A stretch of DNA of 58,593 nucleotides from Armatimonadota bacterium (GTDB lineage Bacteria > Armatimonadota > UBA5829): positions 1-58,593 of the forward strand of contig JAAYKE010000078.1 of assembly GCA_012522575.1 (NCBI GenBank). Direction: 5' to 3'. The notes under the pieces are model-generated. The model was not told the DNA's origin, searched no databases, and was given only the letters and a program-made list of their open reading frames with translations. The translations under genes were made by a program, and so were the position numbers. Numbering within the stretch: position 1 is the stretch's first letter; each line of letters begins with the position of its first letter. Shown here in pieces: positions 39,026-53,250 of this stretch.

Positions 39026-39688
39026 CTAGAACTTGCCGCCAAATAGAGCGACGATCAGCAGTCCGTTAAGGATTAAAATGATCAATCCGGACACGATCAT
39101 AAGCGCGTTTTCGACTTTTCCGTTCGCATATTTGCCCATTACCCGCTTGCTGCTGGTCAAAAGAAGCAGCGGCAGCATCGTCAGAGGCAGTTGGACGCTC
39201 AAACAAGCCTGGCTGACAATCAGCGCCTTGAAGGTGTCATTGATCAACAGGATCAGAGCACATGCTGGCAGCAGGGTTATTATGACTCCCAATCGGAACC
39301 AGTTATTCTCCGTGTTAGTAGGCTGACCGATGAATCCGGTGAATGCGATGCCGCCCGATAGAGCGGCAGTCACCGATGATGCAATGCCGGCAAGCAGCAA
39401 CCCAAGCCCGAATATGAGGCTGGCCAGGTTTCCTACAAGTGGCCGCAATGTCTTTGACGCCTCCACAAGATCATCGATGTGGTAGCCGTTGCTATGAAAT
39501 ACTGCGGCAGAGACGATCACCATAGCGGCGTTGATCGCCAGACCTACCAGCATAGCAAGCAGAGTATCGACAAATTCAAAGCGCAAAAGTCGCTTGGTCT
39601 CAGCTTCTGATTTGCCCTGCCATTGCCGGTTCTGAATCACCTCGGAGTGAAGATACATATTATGCGGCATCACAACCGCTCCGAGCAC
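39026..39688 (-). pseudogene. Nramp metal transporter, C-terminal part after an in-frame stop
   Basis: 220 aa if started at the internal ATG. Begins near TM6 with the conserved VVMPHNMYLHS motif, then TM7-11 of a proton-coupled Mn/Fe importer. It is in the same frame as the upstream 39722-40309 part; between them the frame reads straight through, apart from one TAA (39722-39724), as ...HMVVP, stop, LDSNSILVAVGVLG. In intact relatives this position holds an ordinary residue (for example Ser: VPSL), so one substitution explains the break. No SD precedes the internal ATG. Confidence 0.8.
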
Positions 39689-39721
39689 CCCTACCGCAAC
39701 CAGAATGCTGTTTGAATCCAG

Positions 39722-40309
39722 TTACGGAACCACCATGTGGTAGGCGGCGGCAGCCCAATCCGGCTTAACCAGATACAATTCGACCAGATAGCACACTCCC
39801 ACCGCACTGACCAGCGCAACGATCACTTTTTCCAGGGTGGCATGACGACGAAACCAGATCGCCAGACCGGATATAACCGCAGATACGGCCATCCCCACAA
39901 CGATTGGAACGCGGAACAGAATATATAGCCCGATGGCCGCGCCAAGTAGCTCGGCAAGCGCGGTAGCCGATATCGCAGCCATAGCGGTGATGCCGTAGAT
40001 CGCCGACGGAACCCGCTTCACATTATCTCGTATAGATTCGGCCAGACATTTGCCTGTTACCACGCCGAGGTGAGCGGACATATGCTGCCATAAAATCAAA
40101 ATCAGCGTGCCGAGTCCAACCACCCACAGCAAACGATAGCCATAGTAGCTTCCCGCAGCGACGTTGGTAGCCCAGTTACCGGGATCGATAAAACCGACTG
40201 TGACAAAAAATCCCGGCCCAAGATAACCCAGAATCTGTTTCAGAGACCGACTTTTGCTTCGGATGCGCTCGGTATGTCGATCGATCATAGATGGCAGAGT
40301 GATCTTCAT
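39722..40309 (-). pseudogene. Nramp metal transporter, N-terminal part before an in-frame stop
   Basis: 195 residues, TM1-TM5. The TM1 metal-binding motif is intact (VGFIDPGNWATNVAAGS). The product would lack the TM6 MPH motif and so could not transport on its own. Together with the downstream part it makes a normal length protein (about 428 aa). A start further upstream (40357) is possible; no good SD at either. Alternatives to a pseudogene are a sequencing error or stop readthrough. Confidence 0.8.
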
Positions 40310-40600
40310 AGTTCTACTATAATAACCCATACCGCACATTGGAATCCAGACCATCATCTGCGGATTCGAAATACGAAAATATCACCGCCGGCCAATCTCC
40401 GTCACACATCGATCATCGAGAGTGAACGATTGTGTCCCTTGACATACTCAAATACATGGAGCACAATGCAATATGATGGATATTGATGCAAACCTGGCAG
40501 GCATACCAGGTGTTTGATGTGATGGAGTGGGGTATATATAAGCCATAGTCTATGGGCTGAACGCTTTTGTCGGATAGGGCTTACAAAGGGGGCGAACTCT

Positions 40601-42235: not shown

Positions 42236-45200
42236 TCAATCGAAGAGAAATTTCAAATCCACTCGACCAACCGTATCGCCTTCCCAGTCATTAATTGACC
42301 CTTTTTCGATGCCGGTCTTGCGCTGCAGCGAAAGGCTGATATGGTTGTCAGCTTTGAGTTTGGTGTCGTATTTCAAGCGGAAAATCGGCTTATTATCTGT
42401 GCTTTTGCCTTCGTCTATTGTGCACCAGCCATAATAAAACTCATAACTGGTAGCATCTTTCACCTGCCGGGAAATCCCCAGCCCGATGACATTCGCGTGC
42501 CTGAATGTGTCTGTATTGGTGGAAGTCGTGTAGTCAGCCGTTAGCTTCATCGCTTTGCTGATCGCATGATCGAGCTTTATTACAGTGCCCCCAACCGGTA
42601 TCACAGCCCCGTTTTGTCCATCTTTGCCAAGGAATGAAGTGAACGTCACGGCAGTGCCACCGGAGAACTTATAGTCAAAGGAATAGTTCTGCTTGTTTGT
42701 TTGGACACCCTGCGGCGTGGTCAACGATTGTCGTTGGAGAGCCAGATGATAGGGCTTTTTTGGGTCCTTGTCCGAGACGTACTGGAATATGCGCGATGCG
42801 TAGTAGATGCCGTTTTTAGGATTGAGCTTGTCCGTGGTATCAAGCATCAATTGCCCGCCCAGTAGCCCGGCATTGAGCTTGAACGCATCATCACATACCG
42901 TCTGCTTGCCTCGAAGCGATGTATGGTTCATAGCCGATGCAATGGTAACGTTGTCCAGCAGCAACAGCTTTTTGGCAAGCAGTCCGTTAAGGGAGAATGA
43001 CGACGAGTTTTGATCGCCTTTGGGGCCGCCATCGCGATTAGCCATGCTATATGTCATCTTCAGGTCTTTGCGCGCCGTCCATTCGAAACCAAACATACTA
43101 TTTGTCTCAGAATTGCCTGAATCTCTATCGGTAGCGGAATAGCCGCCAACCAAGGCAATATTGCGCATCGCGGCGGTCTTCAGGCCGATTGATTGGGTGT
43201 TGTCATACTTGCCCTCGCCGAAGTCCATATTCACAATGTCCGCCGTAAAGGAGGTTCTGGCTTTCTGATCAGACTCTATGTGGTTTTCGAACACCGTTGT
43301 CGTCTGCGGCGCATCCGAACCTTCCTGAGTCGTATGAACGTCATTGCGCCCTTTAATAGACAACCCGCCCAGCATATTCAGCTTATGATCATACTTTATC
43401 TCCTGATGAGAATAGCTGGCGATATTGCCTGTCTCGGCTATATATGTATAGTCGTCGGTCAGCAGGTTAATCTTTGGGCCGCGGTTAGGGGCATAGGCGA
43501 TTTTATGTCTGTTCTGATCCCTGGCCTGTCCTGCGGTGAGATTAGTCGAATCATATATATACGAATCAAGACTCAGGCTCTTTGTCGCCTTGAACTTAAC
43601 GGTGTAGTCCGCGCGCCTGAAGCCCCTGTCCAGCATCAGCTTTTCTCTTTCCGGGTTAGACAGATCCATTATTCTGCTGAATCCCTCGTCAATATCCTGG
43701 AAATTAGCAACCACATTGAGTCTGGAGTTTTTCAGCGTAAACTTTTCTTTGTGGAATCCTGCGCCAGCGTTGTCCACAACGTTAGCGGTATCAAGGGTCA
43801 GATCGGATTTCCAGATCTTGAGATTGCCGCCCATTTCCGTTCGAGTCATGCCGCGCTCATTGCCGAAATGCGTCTTTTCGATCGGCTGCAACGCTGCAAG
43901 CTTATCGAATTCGGAATCTATATTCTGAGTGCCCCAGTAAGCGGAGAAGTTGCCCGTTTTCATGCCCAGCGACCGTCTAGTTATCCCGCCGGCTTGCGAC
44001 TCGATATTAGACATAGACATCCATGTGTCCAGTCGAGAGCCATCGAACTGCACCAGATATGTCGACCGATCCAGCCCCTTCTCATTGGCGATTTGCGCTT
44101 TGTCCTCGGCTGTTACCTGTCCTGCGGTCGGATCAAATTGCCGACGAGCCATCAGCGCCATACGAGACCGTTCCTCATCACTCAGCGCGCTCAGCCTGCC
44201 AAAGTCAGCGTCGCTTGTTCGCACATCGGCTACTATCTTAACGCCGCCCATCTGAATATCCGCCTGGCGATAGCTGAGGTCTGCACCTCCGTCACTGAGG
44301 TCAGTGAAATTAATACCGCTCCAAATCGGCTTTTTATCCGCGCTTACGGCAGTTTTGAACTGCATGCTGAAGCTCTGCCTGCTCATTCCCTGCTCGGCAG
44401 CCATCTGTGCGCGGTCGGCTTCCCTGATTTCCTTGAAATGGGCAAATTGCTTGCCGACATCGCGAGCGCTGTAGTTAAATGCGAAGGAGTCTGTCTTATA
44501 GCCAACGTTGCGGGACAATATCTCGTCGTCCTTGTCGCCGATTCGGTTGACTGCGAAATTAAGCCCCTGGCCTTCACCTGCCACGCTCATCCGGCGAATG
44601 CCCTTTTCTTTTTCGAGTTGGCTGAGTATTTCGTTTGAAGCAACCTTGGAATCCTTCAGCGAGGAAAACCCTACGAAGTCCTGCCCGACGTCCTGATAGC
44701 CCAGTTTCAGCCTGAACTTGCCGGCTTGCAGGTCAGCATCCTGAACGATCAAATGATCCCTTTTCAGCTTCTTGTCAGATGCTTTGGCGGGTGCGCCCAG
44801 AGCATTGAGGGTGATTCTATTGCTTGCCTGAGGGGAGGTCACATAGAACATACCCTTGAGGCTGGATGCGCCCGATGCGCCGAACTGGCTGGTGTTGCTC
44901 AATCCGTATGTCAACACGTCCTGGCCGTTCAGCCCCGGCGTCGACTCGGCGGTTCGCAGCGAATAAAGCATGTTTGTCTGCAGCCCGGTTCCGAATCTCA
45001 TAGACACCAGAGACGGAGCCGCAGCGTTGCGCTCAGATCCGGCAGCGGTGGAATAGCGATAGTCCACCTGCACAGTGTTCATTGTCGATACCGGCTCGGT
45101 GAAGAAGAGCGATCCCGACGAATAATCGATAGTATAATCTCTGTTCCGTGAAGCGTGTTTGGCTCCGATAGACACCCATTCGCTGCCTGGGACCACGTTG

Positions 45201-45394
45201 CCGTGTCCGAGCATATACCCGGCGCGAGTCCCGTTGCCCGGCAGCAATTCGCTGGTCATTGCGCTGGCATTGCTGGATTCCGATTGCGATTTTTGCACAG
45301 CAGAGCTATCAACAAGCGCAGTCGCCACCTGGGCGGATGCACTAATTGCAAATGCAAAAACCAATATTAGAACTATGAGAGCTGTTTTCCTCAT
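42236..45394 (-). CDS. large outer-membrane beta-barrel protein with internal repeat
   Basis: 1052 aa. Signal peptide (TALIVLILVFAFAISASA), a small domain at about 70-115 (RDYTIDYSSGSLFFTEPV... VQVDYRYS), then alternating amphipathic strands to the end (VGRVDLKFLFD). Inside the first half are five imperfect repeats at about 234-271, 311-346, 393-449, 491-526 and 567-601 of the form D-[IV]-x3-F-x3-x-L-x4-[ER]-x5-E-[RK]-G-[MLF]-x-R. The start is 14 bp after an anti-sigma-like gene, so both are probably one operon. The same N-terminal domain occurs in the barrel protein at 51.2 kb. No family recognised. Confidence 0.75.
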   Translation of the reverse strand: MRKTALIVLILVFAFAISASAQVATALVDSSAVQKSQSESSNASAMTSELLPGNGTRAGYMLGHGNVVPGSEWVSIGAKHASRNRDYTIDYSSGSLFFTEPVSTMNTVQVDYRYSTAAGSERNAAAPSLVSMRFGTGLQTNMLYSLRTAESTPGLNGQDVLTYGLSNTSQFGASGASSLKGMFYVTSPQASNRITLNALGAPAKASDKKLKRDHLIVQDADLQAGKFRLKLGYQDVGQDFVGFSSLKDSKVASNEILSQLEKEKGIRRMSVAGEGQGLNFAVNRIGDKDDEILSRNVGYKTDSFAFNYSARDVGKQFAHFKEIREADRAQMAAEQGMSRQSFSMQFKTAVSADKKPIWSGINFTDLSDGGADLSYRQADIQMGGVKIVADVRTSDADFGRLSALSDEERSRMALMARRQFDPTAGQVTAEDKAQIANEKGLDRSTYLVQFDGSRLDTWMSMSNIESQAGGITRRSLGMKTGNFSAYWGTQNIDSEFDKLAALQPIEKTHFGNERGMTRTEMGGNLKIWKSDLTLDTANVVDNAGAGFHKEKFTLKNSRLNVVANFQDIDEGFSRIMDLSNPEREKLMLDRGFRRADYTVKFKATKSLSLDSYIYDSTNLTAGQARDQNRHKIAYAPNRGPKINLLTDDYTYIAETGNIASYSHQEIKYDHKLNMLGGLSIKGRNDVHTTQEGSDAPQTTTVFENHIESDQKARTSFTADIVNMDFGEGKYDNTQSIGLKTAAMRNIALVGGYSATDRDSGNSETNSMFGFEWTARKDLKMTYSMANRDGGPKGDQNSSSFSLNGLLAKKLLLLDNVTIASAMNHTSLRGKQTVCDDAFKLNAGLLGGQLMLDTTDKLNPKNGIYYASRIFQYVSDKDPKKPYHLALQRQSLTTPQGVQTNKQNYSFDYKFSGGTAVTFTSFLGKDGQNGAVIPVGGTVIKLDHAISKAMKLTADYTTSTNTDTFRHANVIGLGISRQVKDATSYEFYYGWCTIDEGKSTDNKPIFRLKYDTKLKADNHISLSLQRKTGIEKGSINDWEGDTVGRVDLKFLFD

Positions 45395-45408: not shown

Positions 45409-46293
45409 TCAGAATCGGGCGTTAATCACGCTCACTCCATTATGAACGCTGCCCTTGCGATGCATAGCCGCTTCATTCTTCATCTCTTCCATCCACTGCT
45501 CTGCATTATCGTTCGACACAGCCGGCGACGAGGCTATCCTTGCAGGCTCAGTGTTCAATTGTTCAATGGTCGTATCAACTGCCTCCGTAGCTGGTTGCGC
45601 AATCGTGATCATATCCACCGTCCGCGCAGAAGTGGTATTATCAATCGCGTCAATCACAATCGAATCTTCCATTCCTAGGTCAGCTGTATCAGTATATATA
45701 TCCGATTCTCTGGTCGATTTAATCTTTGGCTGTATGCCTGTTTCAGGCACGAGGGCTACCGAGACAGCGCGCTTGGAAGTTTTGTTAGTCACGATGCGCG
45801 ATGTTCGGTTTGCAGGAGATGTTTTGACTGCATCATCTGCAACCGGCTCTGCAGCCATCGTCTCGACCTCGGCTTGTGTTGCAACGGCAGGGGAAGCCGC
45901 GGGAGTTGCGGCCTTAGTTGCAGTTGTGATCTCGTTGACGGGTTCGCCAACTCGACCAAACATTACGAATAATACAATCGCAACCGCTGCACAGGCTGCG
46001 CCGCCGGCCAACAGAAAAGATCGAACAGGCGCAATGCGCTCAAGGATTGAAGTGCGGAGGTTAAATACAGGCTTGTGCGTAGTGGCGGCGGCAATGCGGG
46101 TTCTCAACTCCGACGGCGGATCGACGGCTTCGATTTCATTTGTTGCGGTGATGAGCATTTTGAGAACCGCCAATTCCTGCCGGCACTGGCTGCATTCGTC
46201 AAGGTGCTTCTCTACCTCGTCAGAATCGTTTTTCGGCAGTTCCCCATCAATATATGCGCTAACAATATCTAATACTCTGCTGCAGTCCGCCAT
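45409..46293 (-). CDS. zinc-finger anti-sigma-factor-like membrane protein
   Basis: 294 aa. N-terminal zf-HC2/ZAS motif His30-x3-Cys34-x2-Cys37 (EKHLDECSQCRQEL), one membrane helix (about 92-113, LLAGGAACAAVAIVLFVMFG), and a long Thr/Ala/Val-rich periplasmic tail. Family members hold an ECF sigma factor at the membrane, but no sigma gene is next to it; the only partner is the downstream barrel gene. The ATG at 46293 has GGAGG 8-9 bp upstream; the frame is open to 46428. It may sense envelope state. Confidence 0.82.
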   Translation of the reverse strand: MADCSRVLDIVSAYIDGELPKNDSDEVEKHLDECSQCRQELAVLKMLITATNEIEAVDPPSELRTRIAAATTHKPVFNLRTSILERIAPVRSFLLAGGAACAAVAIVLFVMFGRVGEPVNEITTATKAATPAASPAVATQAEVETMAAEPVADDAVKTSPANRTSRIVTNKTSKRAVSVALVPETGIQPKIKSTRESDIYTDTADLGMEDSIVIDAIDNTTSARTVDMITIAQPATEAVDTTIEQLNTEPARIASSPAVSNDNAEQWMEEMKNEAAMHRKGSVHNGVSVINARF

Positions 46294-46369
46294 AACTTTG
46301 CCTCCATCGCCTCCGTGGTCGCGCTTTGAACCGCGCCCCATATTTGTTCGACACGCAGGAAAGGCAAAA

Positions 46370-46558
46370 GTAACAACTATTTCAGAAAAACTTTTTCCGA
46401 TGTCCGAGGTTCGAGCCGGTATCGCCACCCAATTCCCAACCTCTAACCTCTAAACCGTGGCTGGTCTCGGTCCCAGCCAGATAATCTATCAACACACAAC
46501 TGCTGTCCGAGACGGAGATCGGACACTACGGGCAGGAGCATCATTTGTGAGCTGTTAC
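46370..46558 (-). mobile_element. MITE-like element, copy 7
   Basis: Inverted copy: GTAACAACTAT at 46370-46380 and GTGAGCTGTTAC at 46547-46558. It ends one base past the stop of the Feo-associated gene (46560). No clear target duplication. It separates the iron operon from the anti-sigma gene. Confidence 0.8.
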
Positions 46559-46559
46559 C

Positions 46560-46766
46560 TCACTCCGAAGATTTATCTGAGCGGGACATTTTTTCGCGAA
46601 GATCGGGCGCGCTGCATTCCGTCGAATGAGATGACGCCGCGCCACACGCGCCGGCGTACGGACAACTCGAGCAGCCCTTATTTGTCGGCCTCAATCGCTT
46701 GACAAGGAAAACCACCGCGACCACCACCAGCACGCCGACTATGATTGATTGTATTAGTGTACTCAT
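46560..46766 (-). CDS. FeoB-associated Cys-rich membrane protein
   Basis: 68 aa: one N-terminal helix (SIIVGVLVVVAVVFLVKRL) and a Cys-rich tail GCSSCPYAGACGAASSHSTEC, as in the FeoB-associated Cys-rich family thought to help ferrous iron uptake. Its ATG overlaps the feoB stop by 4 bp; AGGA lies 5 bp upstream. Last gene of the iron operon. Confidence 0.85.
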   Translation of the reverse strand: MSTLIQSIIVGVLVVVAVVFLVKRLRPTNKGCSSCPYAGACGAASSHSTECSAPDLREKMSRSDKSSE

Positions 46767-48808
46767 ATCATTCCTATTAATAACCCAAGGCGATAGACAA
46801 TAAAACCTACCAGATAGGCCAGTCCGATCGAATATCCAACGGAAAACATCGTCCATTTCCAGGAGTTCGTCTCACGTTTGATCGCTGCAACCGTGGCAAT
46901 GCAGGGCACATAGATCAGGCTCACTACCATAAACGTATACGCAGTCAGCGAGGTGAACGACTCCGACAGAGCAGTATTCAAATCGCCGGACGGATGGCTG
47001 CCTCCATAGAGCACTCCCAGCGTGCTGACTACGATTTCTTTGGCTCCTATGCCAAAAAGCAGGGCTACGGCAGCACGCCAGTCCAGCCCCAGCGGCTTCA
47101 CTACCGGCTCGATCGCCCGTCCAAGATAACCGACCAAACTTTCTGAACTGGAGAACTCAACTCCCCACGGCAATGATCCCAAAGCCCAGATCACAATAGA
47201 CGCCGCAAGTATTACCGTTCCGGCCTTGCTTAAAAACAGCCAGGTTCGTTCCCATACGTGATGCAAAGTGCCCTTCAGCGTAGGCATTCGATAGGGCGGC
47301 AGTTCCATAACAAAGGGCGATGCGGCCTTTGGGAACAGCACCTTTCTGAACAGCTTGCCGGACAATACCGCCAGCAGCACGCCCAGAACGTAGATCGAAA
47401 AAATCACCATAGCTCCGTGAGCAGAAAAGAATATCCCCGTAAACAGAATATAAATCGGCAGTCGAGCGGCGCAGCTCATCAGCGGGTTGATAAGTATGGT
47501 CAGCAGTCGATCCTCGCGTGTTTCCAGGGTTCGCGTTGCCATAACCGCGGGCACGTTGCAGCCAAATCCCATCAACATAGGTATGAATGACTTGCCGTGA
47601 AGGCCGATAACGTGCATCGATCGATCCATCAAAAATGCTGCGCGCGCCATATACCCGGAATCTTCCAGAAACGAAATAATCAAAAATATGATCGCTATAT
47701 TAGGGACAAATACCACAACGCCCCCAACTCCGGCTATGACCCCGTCTATGATCAACGAAGACAAAGGGCCGGCGGGCAGCAAAGCCTCCAACCACGCGCC
47801 GAAAGCCGATATGCCGATCTCAATCCACTCGGTAAAAACGCCTCCGACATCGAATGTCAGCTTGAATGTCAGCCACATCAGCCCCAAAAATATCGGGATT
47901 CCCAGCCACCTGTGCAGCAGCACATCATCTATGCGATCGGAGGTAGCGATCCTATCCACCGAAGGCGTCCTGGTGACCACCTCCCGTAATAACCCTCCGA
48001 TAAACCCATATCGACCGTCGGCTATGACCGTTTCCGGGTCATCTCCAAAGCCTTCGGCCAAATGCCTCTTGGTCTCATCGACTTTGTTGAGGGTGTCCTG
48101 CGGGTCGGTCGAGCATTCCGCCAGCTTCTGACGAGCGACAGAGTCACCTTCCAGGGTCTTTATCACAAGCCATCGAGCGGGCATTGATCCCGCGCATCGC
48201 CCCTCATCGTTGACGATGATGGGCAGCTCATCGAGCAGTTTGGAAACCTCTATTTCCACCTCGGGATTATGTCGCGTGCTTCGCGGCGCTTCGTAACCCG
48301 TTTCCGCCAGTTTAAGGACAGTATCGAGAATCTCCCTCATTCCCTCGCCTTTGGCGGCCACCGTCGGCACAATTTCAACCCCCATCAACCCTGCCAGCTT
48401 GTCAAGGTCAAGCCTTTGGCCCATGCCCTCGGCGACATCGATCATGTTCAATGCGACGACTACCGGCAGCCCCAGTTCCAGAAGTTGAGTGGTAAGGTAG
48501 AGGTTACGTTCCAGGTTGCTGGCATCCACGATATTTACGATGACATCGATAGGCTCATTGAGCAGAAAATCTCGCGCTATTATTTCTTCCTGCGAATAAG
48601 CCGACAGGCTGTAGATGCCGGGCAGGTCGATAACCCGGAACTCATGCCCGTCCCTTCGAAGAGTGCCTTCCTTATGTTCTACGGTCACGCCCGGCCAGTT
48701 GCCTACGTGCTGGTGGGAGCCGGTGAGTTCGTTGAATACGGTGGTTTTCCCGGAGTTGGGATTTCCTGCAAGTGCAATAACGATATTGGTCTTAGAGCTA
48801 TTCTTCAT
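46763..48808 (-). CDS. feoB: ferrous iron transporter FeoB
   Basis: 681 aa. N-terminal G domain with GNPNSGKTT (15-23), the switch region HVGNWPGVTVEHKEG, DLPGIYSL (G3) and NMID (G4), then two Gate domains with the conserved NPLMSCAARLPIYI, plus FeoB core helices; it imports Fe2+ across the inner membrane. Slightly shorter than the E. coli protein (773). 41 bp downstream of the DtxR-FeoA gene. No separate feoA gene is present; the FeoA domain is fused to the regulator. Confidence 0.96.
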   Translation of the reverse strand: MKNSSKTNIVIALAGNPNSGKTTVFNELTGSHQHVGNWPGVTVEHKEGTLRRDGHEFRVIDLPGIYSLSAYSQEEIIARDFLLNEPIDVIVNIVDASNLERNLYLTTQLLELGLPVVVALNMIDVAEGMGQRLDLDKLAGLMGVEIVPTVAAKGEGMREILDTVLKLAETGYEAPRSTRHNPEVEIEVSKLLDELPIIVNDEGRCAGSMPARWLVIKTLEGDSVARQKLAECSTDPQDTLNKVDETKRHLAEGFGDDPETVIADGRYGFIGGLLREVVTRTPSVDRIATSDRIDDVLLHRWLGIPIFLGLMWLTFKLTFDVGGVFTEWIEIGISAFGAWLEALLPAGPLSSLIIDGVIAGVGGVVVFVPNIAIIFLIISFLEDSGYMARAAFLMDRSMHVIGLHGKSFIPMLMGFGCNVPAVMATRTLETREDRLLTILINPLMSCAARLPIYILFTGIFFSAHGAMVIFSIYVLGVLLAVLSGKLFRKVLFPKAASPFVMELPPYRMPTLKGTLHHVWERTWLFLSKAGTVILAASIVIWALGSLPWGVEFSSSESLVGYLGRAIEPVVKPLGLDWRAAVALLFGIGAKEIVVSTLGVLYGGSHPSGDLNTALSESFTSLTAYTFMVVSLIYVPCIATVAAIKRETNSWKWTMFSVGYSIGLAYLVGFIVYRLGLLIGMI

Positions 48809-48849
48809 TTATGATATTCCATTGTGCCGGCGGTTGGGTCCAAGCCGGG

Positions 48850-49602
48850 TCAGTCGTTTATTACTTCTACCTCGACGTGTTCTGCCTCGCTTCTTCTCAG
48901 GGACAGATTATATCCCCTGATCTTAATCTCTATCGGGTCACCGAACGGAGCGGTGCGCAATACCTCGAAGTGTGTGTCTGAGGTCATCCCCATTTCCACC
49001 AGCCGTTTTCGTATAGGCTTGCGGCCGGAGACAAATGCTATGCGCCCTTTCATTCCGGGACAAAGCTCACTGAGCCGGGTGGATTTGATAGTAGCCGGCA
49101 AATAGCACACATCCGCTGACATATCCCCGTCAGGGTCGGAGCCATCCTTGAGAAAGCTCTGAAAGTCGCTCAGGCGAAATGCCTTATCATCCCCATGCGC
49201 GCCGATAAAGTCCACAAGTTTAAGCAGCCTGTCGAGGGTTTCAGGACTGATCGCGTGTTCAAGCCCGCACGCTTCCTGTTCTACGTCCTCTTCAGGCAAG
49301 CCCAGCACGCTCGTCAAAAACTCCCTGACAGCGGTGTGCCTGTGAGCAATGCCTCGAGCATGATCAAGTCCGGCCTGCGTCAACTCGACGCTTTCATAAG
49401 GCTGATATATCACCAGACCTTTATCCGCAAGGGCTTTCAAAGCACCTGTCACGGACGGCATCCGAACGTTCATCTCACGAGATATATCCTTGACACGGGC
49501 TACCTGATTGCGGACCTTGATGTTGTATATCGCCTCAAGGTAGTCCTCCATAGAATGGGAGAGGTTCATATCTTGCCGGTTAAAAGGGCGGCCTCTTTGC
49601 AT
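48850..49602 (-). CDS. DtxR/IdeR-type iron repressor with C-terminal FeoA domain
   Basis: 250 aa. Winged helix (about 14-75, MEDYLEAIYNIKVRNQVARV), dimer/metal domain (80-165) with ACGLEHAIS: Cys112, Glu115 and His116 correspond to the DtxR primary iron site, favouring iron over manganese sensing. Residues about 172-250 are a FeoA/SH3-like domain (RLSELCPGMKGRIAFV... IKIRGYNLSLRRSEAEHVEVE). AAGG lies 8-9 bp before the ATG. First gene of the feo operon with an iron box over its own promoter. Confidence 0.92.
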   Translation of the reverse strand: MQRGRPFNRQDMNLSHSMEDYLEAIYNIKVRNQVARVKDISREMNVRMPSVTGALKALADKGLVIYQPYESVELTQAGLDHARGIAHRHTAVREFLTSVLGLPEEDVEQEACGLEHAISPETLDRLLKLVDFIGAHGDDKAFRLSDFQSFLKDGSDPDGDMSADVCYLPATIKSTRLSELCPGMKGRIAFVSGRKPIRKRLVEMGMTSDTHFEVLRTAPFGDPIEIKIRGYNLSLRRSEAEHVEVEVIND

Positions 49603-50977: not shown

Positions 50978-51216
50978 AGTAATGCCTCCTGGTATAATAT
51001 ATGGTAGATTATACACCGAGTTATCGATCAGCTATGCACGGTTGTATGAGTAATCACACGACTTTGCAAGGAAATTGCGTGTGCGGCGTAGAATAACAAC
51101 TGATAGATGCAGTCGATTTGCTTGTGCGGTAAAGATAACCTGAACGCAGATGGGAACCTGCGGATGCTTGCCTCGTCTATATATTAGTGGAAATTGATCA
51201 GGCGAGAGGATGCCAA

Positions 51217-53250
51217 TTGCGCTTAACTGTTGAGTATAAACTGGTCGCGGCCTTGTCTGTCGTCGCCCTTATCCTAGGGTTGGCGACGCCTTGTCACGTC
51301 CGGGCAGCGACAGGAACCGAACTGGGAGCGGTTGACTCCATCGGAGGGGTCACCGATGTCATCGTTGGCCGCAACATGCGCGGGCCATATTCTCTGTCCT
51401 GGACGAACTTCAGCGCAGATGATATTTCGGTTGTTATAAATGGAAGATCGTTGAAGAAGGGATCAGACTACAATATCGATGTCGCGAAGGGTCTGGTTTC
51501 TTTCAATTCAGTTCTGGTAAATGACGCGATCGTTCGGGTATCGTATAGAACCGTGCCCGGAAAATCGCAGCGGGCCTCCAGCGGTGGGAGTATTCCCGTA
51601 ACCCTCAGCCTGCACAACAGCTCCGCAGGCAATCTGAAAATGATGGGCTTGTATGCCCAGAGCGATCCCAAAAACCCGACTGCGGGCAAATCCGTAATCG
51701 GACTTGGCGGAGACAGAGCGTGGAGATCGGGCAAAATAGACTCCATGTTTCTTATCAGCCAGGACGAAGCGAGCAAGGATACTGCCAGTATGTGGGAGAG
51801 GGCTGCGATGAAATTCGGAGGGGATACAAGTATAGGTAAGTTAAAGTTAACCGGCTCATACTTGCACTCCGGCCAATCGTTTAGCGGCGGAAAAGAATAC
51901 GGCACCGATGTCGGCAAAGACCAAATGAGTTTTGCCGCATCGTTCGCTGCCGCCAAAAATTTGCAGACAAGCGCTTCGTTTAGGTCCTCGGAGGATACCG
52001 TCGGGGAGAAAAAGGGAGTCCGCACGGTGGTAAACGAACAAAACGTAGTTTACACCCCCGGCAAATCTACAAAGGTCTCACTTATGCGTTCCGATACTGA
52101 GTTGACCTCAAAGGATGGCGCGAAGGACAACATACAAACCAGCGGATTGCAACTGACCAGCAATGCGTTCAAACGCACCACGCTGCGCACTTCGCTGACA
52201 CAAAAAGACTCAGACTCTGCCGGAGCCGAGCGCGGGTTTTCGACGGGGATGACCGCGAAACCCAGCGACCGGATCGACTTCGACATAGATTATGCTACCC
52301 TGGAAAACAAAACTGTCGGACACCAGACCAGCACGGCTATTAAAGTTGCCGCAAAGCCAAACAAACAATTGGCGGTTCAAGCCGGCTATTCGGGTCAGGA
52401 TTCCACCGTAAAGGGGGACCTTACTAAAACCAACATAGCTATTCAAGCTACCCCCCGCGCTAATCTGCAAATAAAGGGGACGATGACCGACACGACCGAA
52501 AACGAAAACCAGCAATACACCAGGGATATCAGCCTGACCAGCACACCGTTGCAATATGCCAGCTTGACTGCGATGTATTCGCAAAAAGGAGTCAATGATC
52601 TCGACGATGTAATAAAGGGAGCGGAGTTGAAATTGACGCCATCCAAGCGCACCAATTTGATGGCTGGCTACAAATATACAGAGACGGGTCCCAGCGTGCT
52701 CACGGTGCAGGACTTCGGTGCGGACACCAAACCGTGGGACTTTTTACATTTCGCAGGCAACTATAGACGACGCGACCTGCGATCGAGCAGCATCGCCGAC
52801 TCAAGCTATCTGTCGCTGGAATTGAGTCCTTCAAAACTATTCGCCCTGACAGGCAGCTATCAATCAAACCCGGAGGATAAAAAAGGCAATATACAGTACT
52901 TCAATAGCGCTTCTCTCGGGTTCAAGACGAGCATCGGCTCTGTAGGGCTGGAGACGGCGTTTGCCCAAAAAGATCAGTATGCCATAGACACATTTACCGA
53001 TGAGCGCAGCCTGGGAATTGCCATGCCGATGTTTGGCCGCGGCAAGCTTACGACCGGCTGCAAGCTGAGCAGGACAATGGGAGTGGCGTCTCTGGAAAGC
53101 AGAAGATATCAACTCGGATACAGTCATTCCATAGGGTCGGATTTCAGCCTGGCGCTAAACAACTACTATACGCAGTATCTGCAAAACAAGATGCATCAGC
53201 CGGAGAGAAACGAAATATCCACCGAGCTGAGCCTTGGAGCCAGGTTCTAA
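51217..53250 (+). CDS. outer-membrane beta-barrel protein
   Basis: 677 aa from a TTG start with AGAGGA 6 bp upstream (GTG at 51187 also possible). Signal peptide (LVAALSVVALILGLATPCHVRA), a small domain (about 35-115, GSDYNIDVAKGLVSFNSVLV... VRVSYRT) shared with the 42-45 kb barrel protein, then about 550 residues of alternating strands rich in S/T/K/D. It ends LSLGARF, a C-terminal Phe typical of BAM-inserted barrels. No repeats of the kind in its paralogue. Function unknown. Confidence 0.75.
   Translation: MRLTVEYKLVAALSVVALILGLATPCHVRAATGTELGAVDSIGGVTDVIVGRNMRGPYSLSWTNFSADDISVVINGRSLKKGSDYNIDVAKGLVSFNSVLVNDAIVRVSYRTVPGKSQRASSGGSIPVTLSLHNSSAGNLKMMGLYAQSDPKNPTAGKSVIGLGGDRAWRSGKIDSMFLISQDEASKDTASMWERAAMKFGGDTSIGKLKLTGSYLHSGQSFSGGKEYGTDVGKDQMSFAASFAAAKNLQTSASFRSSEDTVGEKKGVRTVVNEQNVVYTPGKSTKVSLMRSDTELTSKDGAKDNIQTSGLQLTSNAFKRTTLRTSLTQKDSDSAGAERGFSTGMTAKPSDRIDFDIDYATLENKTVGHQTSTAIKVAAKPNKQLAVQAGYSGQDSTVKGDLTKTNIAIQATPRANLQIKGTMTDTTENENQQYTRDISLTSTPLQYASLTAMYSQKGVNDLDDVIKGAELKLTPSKRTNLMAGYKYTETGPSVLTVQDFGADTKPWDFLHFAGNYRRRDLRSSSIADSSYLSLELSPSKLFALTGSYQSNPEDKKGNIQYFNSASLGFKTSIGSVGLETAFAQKDQYAIDTFTDERSLGIAMPMFGRGKLTTGCKLSRTMGVASLESRRYQLGYSHSIGSDFSLALNNYYTQYLQNKMHQPERNEISTELSLGARF

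Follow-up and report, generated by a model that had tools for sequence, protein, structure and literature searches.

The window analyzed here is the whole 58,593-nucleotide stretch of DNA from an Armatimonadota bacterium, and it carries on its reverse strand a gene for a large putative outer-membrane beta-barrel protein and, directly upstream, a gene for an anti-sigma-type partner. The barrel gene, which is present in one copy in its own genome, is organized as follows:

42236..45394 (-), ORF of the large putative outer-membrane beta-barrel, 1052 aa, with a Sec signal peptide
45329..45394 (-), signal peptide, approximately aa 1-22, MRKTALIVLILVFAFAISASAQ, assigned by reading the sequence
45047..45253 (-), N-terminal hairpin domain, aa 48-116, GYxLxHGNVIPxSE...DYxIDYxxGxLxF, common to a second barrel family
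44555..44725 (-), repeat unit 1, aa 224-280
44339..44497 (-), repeat unit 2, aa 300-352
44030..44248 (-), repeat unit 3, aa 383-455, with a conserved extra helical insert
43805..43957 (-), repeat unit 4, aa 480-530
43577..43729 (-), repeat unit 5, aa 556-606
42239..43537 (-), C-terminal unit-free beta meander, aa 620-1052, with ~24-26 strands according to a low-confidence model

In its sequence and in the two-unit structure model described below, the protein displays the general features of outer-membrane beta-barrels, i.e., a signal peptide and an antiparallel strand meander like that of solved pores, and we infer that it is located in the outer membrane. The first-pass annotation had proposed a barrel-type protein, and these features support that proposal. 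It had also recognized no known family, and indeed the window protein had no Pfam match up to E 5, and neither Pfam nor NCBIfam holds a family that fits the barrel proteins as a group. Candidate matches to tail-tube and DUF2460 families were rejected, as they covered the N-terminal hairpin only and fell below the cut-off (E >1e-4), and PDB sequence matches to designed Pizza proteins were attributed to chance, as were profile matches at E 0.04-0.09. The Deinococcus SlpA barrel (SlpA_C, PF21620) was matched weakly (E 4.9e-6) by one of 20 members; its 25.7 bits fell short of the 35-bit cut-off, the remaining 19, window protein included, had no match, and membership was rejected.

A k-mer scan of the genome contigs with the window protein alone gave no match. 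The barrel proteins form a real, phylum-wide and uncharacterized family with a modular repeat: we collected 40 of them from Armatimonadota genomes for a family alignment, and some barrel match was found in 77 of 101 genomes, many of the weaker matches being to the N-terminal hairpin domain only. The second large barrel family, which has the same hairpin domain, is represented in the window by a 687-aa protein (51187-53250, forward strand) that ends in ELSLGARF and has no Pfam match. At one locus (L051), a second-family homologue lies directly upstream of a zf-HC2 gene.

The five units of the window protein are homologous to each other. In hhalign comparisons of unit profiles, which were segments cut from the 40-member family alignment, all ten pairs were significant (E 2.8e-7 to 1.6e-16, scores 32.3-72.2), whereas 60 decoy comparisons of unit with non-unit segments of the same alignment scored 15.1 at most, with a median of 9. 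The five-fold repeat claimed in the first-pass annotation is thus borne out, and its proposed spacing of 75-95 aa agrees with the intervals between the anchor phenylalanines (77, 81, 98, and 76 aa for F240, F317, F398, F496, and F572). A unit HMM detected repeats in 40 of 40 relatives, where the commonest spacing was 76 aa (43 adjacent pairs), with most of the others at 75-88. The consensus unit consists of a strand, Q/D-x-I-D-x-x-F-x-R, L-x-D-x-D-R, a helix, A-x-E-x-G-[M/F/I]-x-R, and a further strand; unit 3 additionally has the conserved helical stretch MALxxRRQFDPxA...VTxxDK. The E-x-G-hydrophobic-x-R end resembles a helix C-cap, and the S/D-x-x-D/E start an N-cap; these two caps would account for much of the conserved motif (S/D..DR ... 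E-x-G-[MF]-x-R), which is the helical loop of the unit together with its caps. Relatives contain approximately 2-6 units each: six are found in L039 and L051, among others, owing to an additional unit behind unit 2, and fewer in L044, L054, and L047. Judged by leaf order alone, the units cluster largely by position across the phylum in a FastTree tree, and therefore most of the duplications look older than the radiation.

An AlphaFold model of units 4-5, computed from six alignment rows, reached a pLDDT of 85.9 and a pTM of 0.73. It places strands at D4-13, A16-25, B49-60, and C63-74, with the helices between A and B, after which the same pattern begins again. The motif is thus helical, lies between strands, and recurs at regular positions, as had been suggested earlier. 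The repeat extends beyond the ~36-aa motif, however, and is a 76-aa module of four strands and a helical loop; both this module and a barrel built from such repeats are well supported. The strands are 10-12 aa long, the D-A and B-C turns have 2 residues, and the A-B loop of ~23 residues between the second and third strand shares the opposite edge with the C-D turns. Outer-membrane proteins have their tight turns, and also their C-terminus, on the periplasmic side. Because the tight D-A and B-C turns are presumably periplasmic as well, and because the strand count to the C-terminus agrees, the model suggests that the helical loops point outward, where they might act as extracellular lids or inward-folded loops; the count crosses a poorly modelled stretch (616-664), which keeps the side assignment inferential.

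Structural comparison is consistent with a pore. VIA-align of the two-unit model returned PapC with a Z of 10.4 (rmsd 4.0, 117 aligned), VDAC with 9.9, and OprD/Occ porins with 7-9; Foldseek alone, with the same model, gave nothing below E 0.001. The full-length model, built from three full-length rows because an alignment scan had yielded only two loci, is poor (pLDDT 43, pTM 0.35) and forms a continuous meander of ~45 modelled strands, or 46-49 by eye when unmodelled ones are included. At this quality, the strand total and closure into a single barrel are unproven, and the whole protein could be either one giant barrel or two barrels. The best Foldseek matches of the full-length model were LptD, SprA, SlpA, FimD, and ApoB, with TM-scores of ~0.10-0.17 that amount to a pattern match only. 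The presence of ApoB lipid-sheet structures among the structural matches is what would favor a periplasmic beta-sheet groove over transmembrane strands; given the strand length of 10-12 aa, the tight alternate turns, and the better match to pores, we regard such a groove as very improbable. SprA of type 9 secretion and LptD resemble the barrel as large beta meanders with local Foldseek matches, but no sequence relation between them and the barrel was found in Pfam or PDB searches, the TM-scores are as low as 0.1-0.17, and we know of no helical-loop repeat described for either protein.

The upstream partner, which was not part of the first-pass annotation, ends 14 bp before the barrel gene and has the following features:

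45409..46428 (-), zf-HC2 anti-sigma-type protein with one transmembrane helix and a low-complexity linker, its true start likely the ATG at 46293
46180..46284 (-), zf-HC2 domain (Pfam)
45961..46017 (-), single transmembrane segment (hydropathy)
45412..45435 (-), conserved outer-membrane-type C-terminus, VSVINARF

The window partner matches Pfam zf-HC2 above the cut-off (E 1.4e-11) and NCBIfam anti-sigma models below theirs, and its designation as anti-sigma-type refers to this domain similarity. Among the 40 barrel loci with readable upstream sequence, 31 have a zf-HC2-type ORF directly upstream on the same strand, separated from the barrel gene by -1 to 128 bp and once by 282 bp. These 31 partners share a single hydrophobic segment and a variable linker of 155-263 aa, 53-74% of which is P/A/E/T/S/K/Q/D/N, a composition that would suit a long flexible or disordered tether. 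Some variation was observed among the partners. Those of L035 and L069 are among some that carry two zf-HC2 stretches in tandem, and those of L050, L056, and L057, which belong to one family, lack recognizable zinc ligands and keep the F-ending tail. Behind the barrel gene of the latter three loci, there are two conserved genes of ~1085 aa (with a CxxCH haem-type motif near the N-terminus) and ~586 aa.

In the remaining nine loci (L048, L049, and L058-L064), the barrel is kept without an adjacent partner, and it therefore has a partner-independent role. Such persistence is also what one would expect if the barrel were simply a large channel for transport or secretion, in which the helical loops serve as lids or make up a selectivity ring and the zf-HC2 neighbor only controls expression. 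The fold matches to OprD/Occ porins, LptD, and PapC/FimD agree with a channel, as do the metal-transport genes nearby (FeoB, DtxR-FeoA, Nramp). However, Feo genes adjoin in the same genus only and not in other families, and the conserved OMP-like tail of the partner is left unexplained; we consider this explanation unlikely.

As for the metal genes themselves, FeoB lies upstream of the partner gene (46763-49602, reverse strand) next to a gene in which a DtxR-type repressor and a FeoA domain are fused. Within the fetched flanks, only the sister species keeps this order, and an iron-uptake role based on this neighborhood was dropped for that reason. On the other side, an Nramp transporter is split over two ORFs (39026-40357, reverse strand; PF01566 positions 166-356 and 1-152), and the matching place in the sister genome (L031) holds a single 457-aa Nramp ORF. 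The split may reflect either a frameshift or an assembly error.

The partner tail was conserved across the 31 sequences: Phe is the last residue in 29, and all have V/I/L at -8 and V/I/L/F at -6. The C-terminal pattern [VIL].[VILF][VILFWA]...[FYL] occurs in 30 of 31 partners, whereas among 420 other ORFs of these loci with a length of 150 aa or more it occurs in 1. Because the partners are related, these counts are not independent, and the pattern was defined with the tails already in view. The partner C-terminus resembles, at the sequence level, those of Armatimonadota outer-membrane proteins. Indeed, all 30 Omp85 proteins read from the phylum end in Phe (e.g., THFSIGHAF), as do all 24 readable second-family barrels, mostly with L-G-[VLAI]-[RK]-F, and one of the latter ends in INARF, like the window partner. 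The spacing differs, in that the partner tail is hydrophobic at -1, -5, -6, and -8, whereas Omp85 tails show plain alternation. The tail was sought on other zf-HC2 proteins found in the window's own genome and on those found in five genomes without a barrel-adjacent partner, and none carried it.

In E. coli, OMP C-termini activate DegS. An OMP-like C-terminus on an anti-sigma-type protein might likewise be a ligand for a DegS-type periplasmic PDZ protease, mimicking or competing with unfolded OMP C-termini, with the barrel being a co-transcribed product under supply regulation. In five same-family genomes (L032, L034, L035, L040, and L043), an operon of an ECF sigma factor, a short RseA-like zf-HC2 protein, and MucB/RseB lies close by in divergent orientation, which fits an envelope-stress setting and lends this explanation some support. 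On the other hand, the tail was found only beside the barrel gene, the other zf-HC2 proteins read here lacking it, and a sensor of OMP stress in general should have no need of one particular neighboring barrel. We therefore find the protease-ligand explanation rather unlikely. Although the locus resembles Sigma-E/RseA/RseB systems in these RseA-like proteins and in the full divergent operon of the five genomes, it differs from them in the 155-263 aa linker and OMP-like tail of the barrel partner, and the window's own genome has no MucB/RseB match. No sigma factor gene adjoins the locus within the window.

FecA/FecR-type TonB-dependent signalling is similar in that an outer-membrane barrel and an inner-membrane anti-sigma protein are encoded together. 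The present partner is instead a zf-HC2 protein with a flexible linker, and Pfam detected neither a TonB plug nor a TonB-dependent receptor or FecR domain (window protein to E 5; 20 members). The closest described design is Dma, a single chain that combines an anti-sigma domain, a TM helix, a disordered tether, and a C-terminal barrel. It is encoded next to an ECF21 sigma factor or, in the case of Dma3, contains its own sigma, and has been reported solely in Bacteroidota (PMC13088901). The partner likewise has an N-terminal anti-sigma-type domain, one TM helix, a long tether, and a C-terminal outer-membrane-type beta element, and regulation from the outer membrane to the cytosol, known for Dma, is proposed here for a pair known from sequence. 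By contrast, the partner chain ends in an 8-residue strand-like motif, the barrel is a separate, much larger and repeat-built ORF, and a divergent ECF operon is found in five other genomes only. Since the pair has neither the single-chain barrel nor the adjacent sigma gene, we do not file it as Dma, although in outline it would work in a similar way.

Given the observed repeat module, family, synteny, and conserved tail, we postulate with a probability of about one half that the pair is a split, two-gene counterpart of Dma, in which a modular barrel and a tethered anti-sigma-type partner docking at the outer membrane would act in signalling. The nearby ECF operons of the five same-family genomes count in favor of this proposal; counting against it are the lack of an adjoining sigma gene in the window and of a MucB/RseB match in its own genome, the three loci without recognizable zinc ligands, the nine loci with a barrel alone, the low quality of the full-length model, and the hydrophobic spacing of the tail. 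The barrel has probably grown through duplication of the 76-aa module, which runs from strand D through strand A, the helical loop, and strand B to strand C. Each copy adds two more hairpins to the wall and contributes one helical loop, probably on the outer face. The five helical loops, similar to one another, could then encircle the pore mouth or lie over it as a ring. In the partner sequence, a cytoplasmic zf-HC2 domain is followed by one helix for the inner membrane, a long flexible linker for the periplasm, and, at the C-terminus, a strand with an OMP-like end. This strand might dock at the outer membrane, with either the barrel itself or the BAM assembly machine as its site. The state or assembly of the barrel would decide whether the anti-sigma domain is protected or released or cleaved. 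This arrangement suggests a two-gene device reporting the state of the outer membrane to the cell. In a bolder version that we deem quite improbable, the tail strand pairs with or completes a single barrel of ~46-49 strands, resized by four-strand helical-loop modules, as a two-gene trans-envelope sensor. The SprA barrel has 36 strands, which a single 46-49-strand barrel would exceed, if true.

Armatimonadota envelopes are little studied, and our searches of a limited collection of papers for their envelope proteins found nothing relevant to the barrel/partner system. The present analysis names a phylum-wide outer-membrane protein family that is without a Pfam or NCBIfam model, and shows how a barrel wall has grown via duplication of a defined four-strand module. 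In addition, it provides a candidate, open to experimental testing, for an anti-sigma-type protein outside Bacteroidota that would reach the outer membrane.
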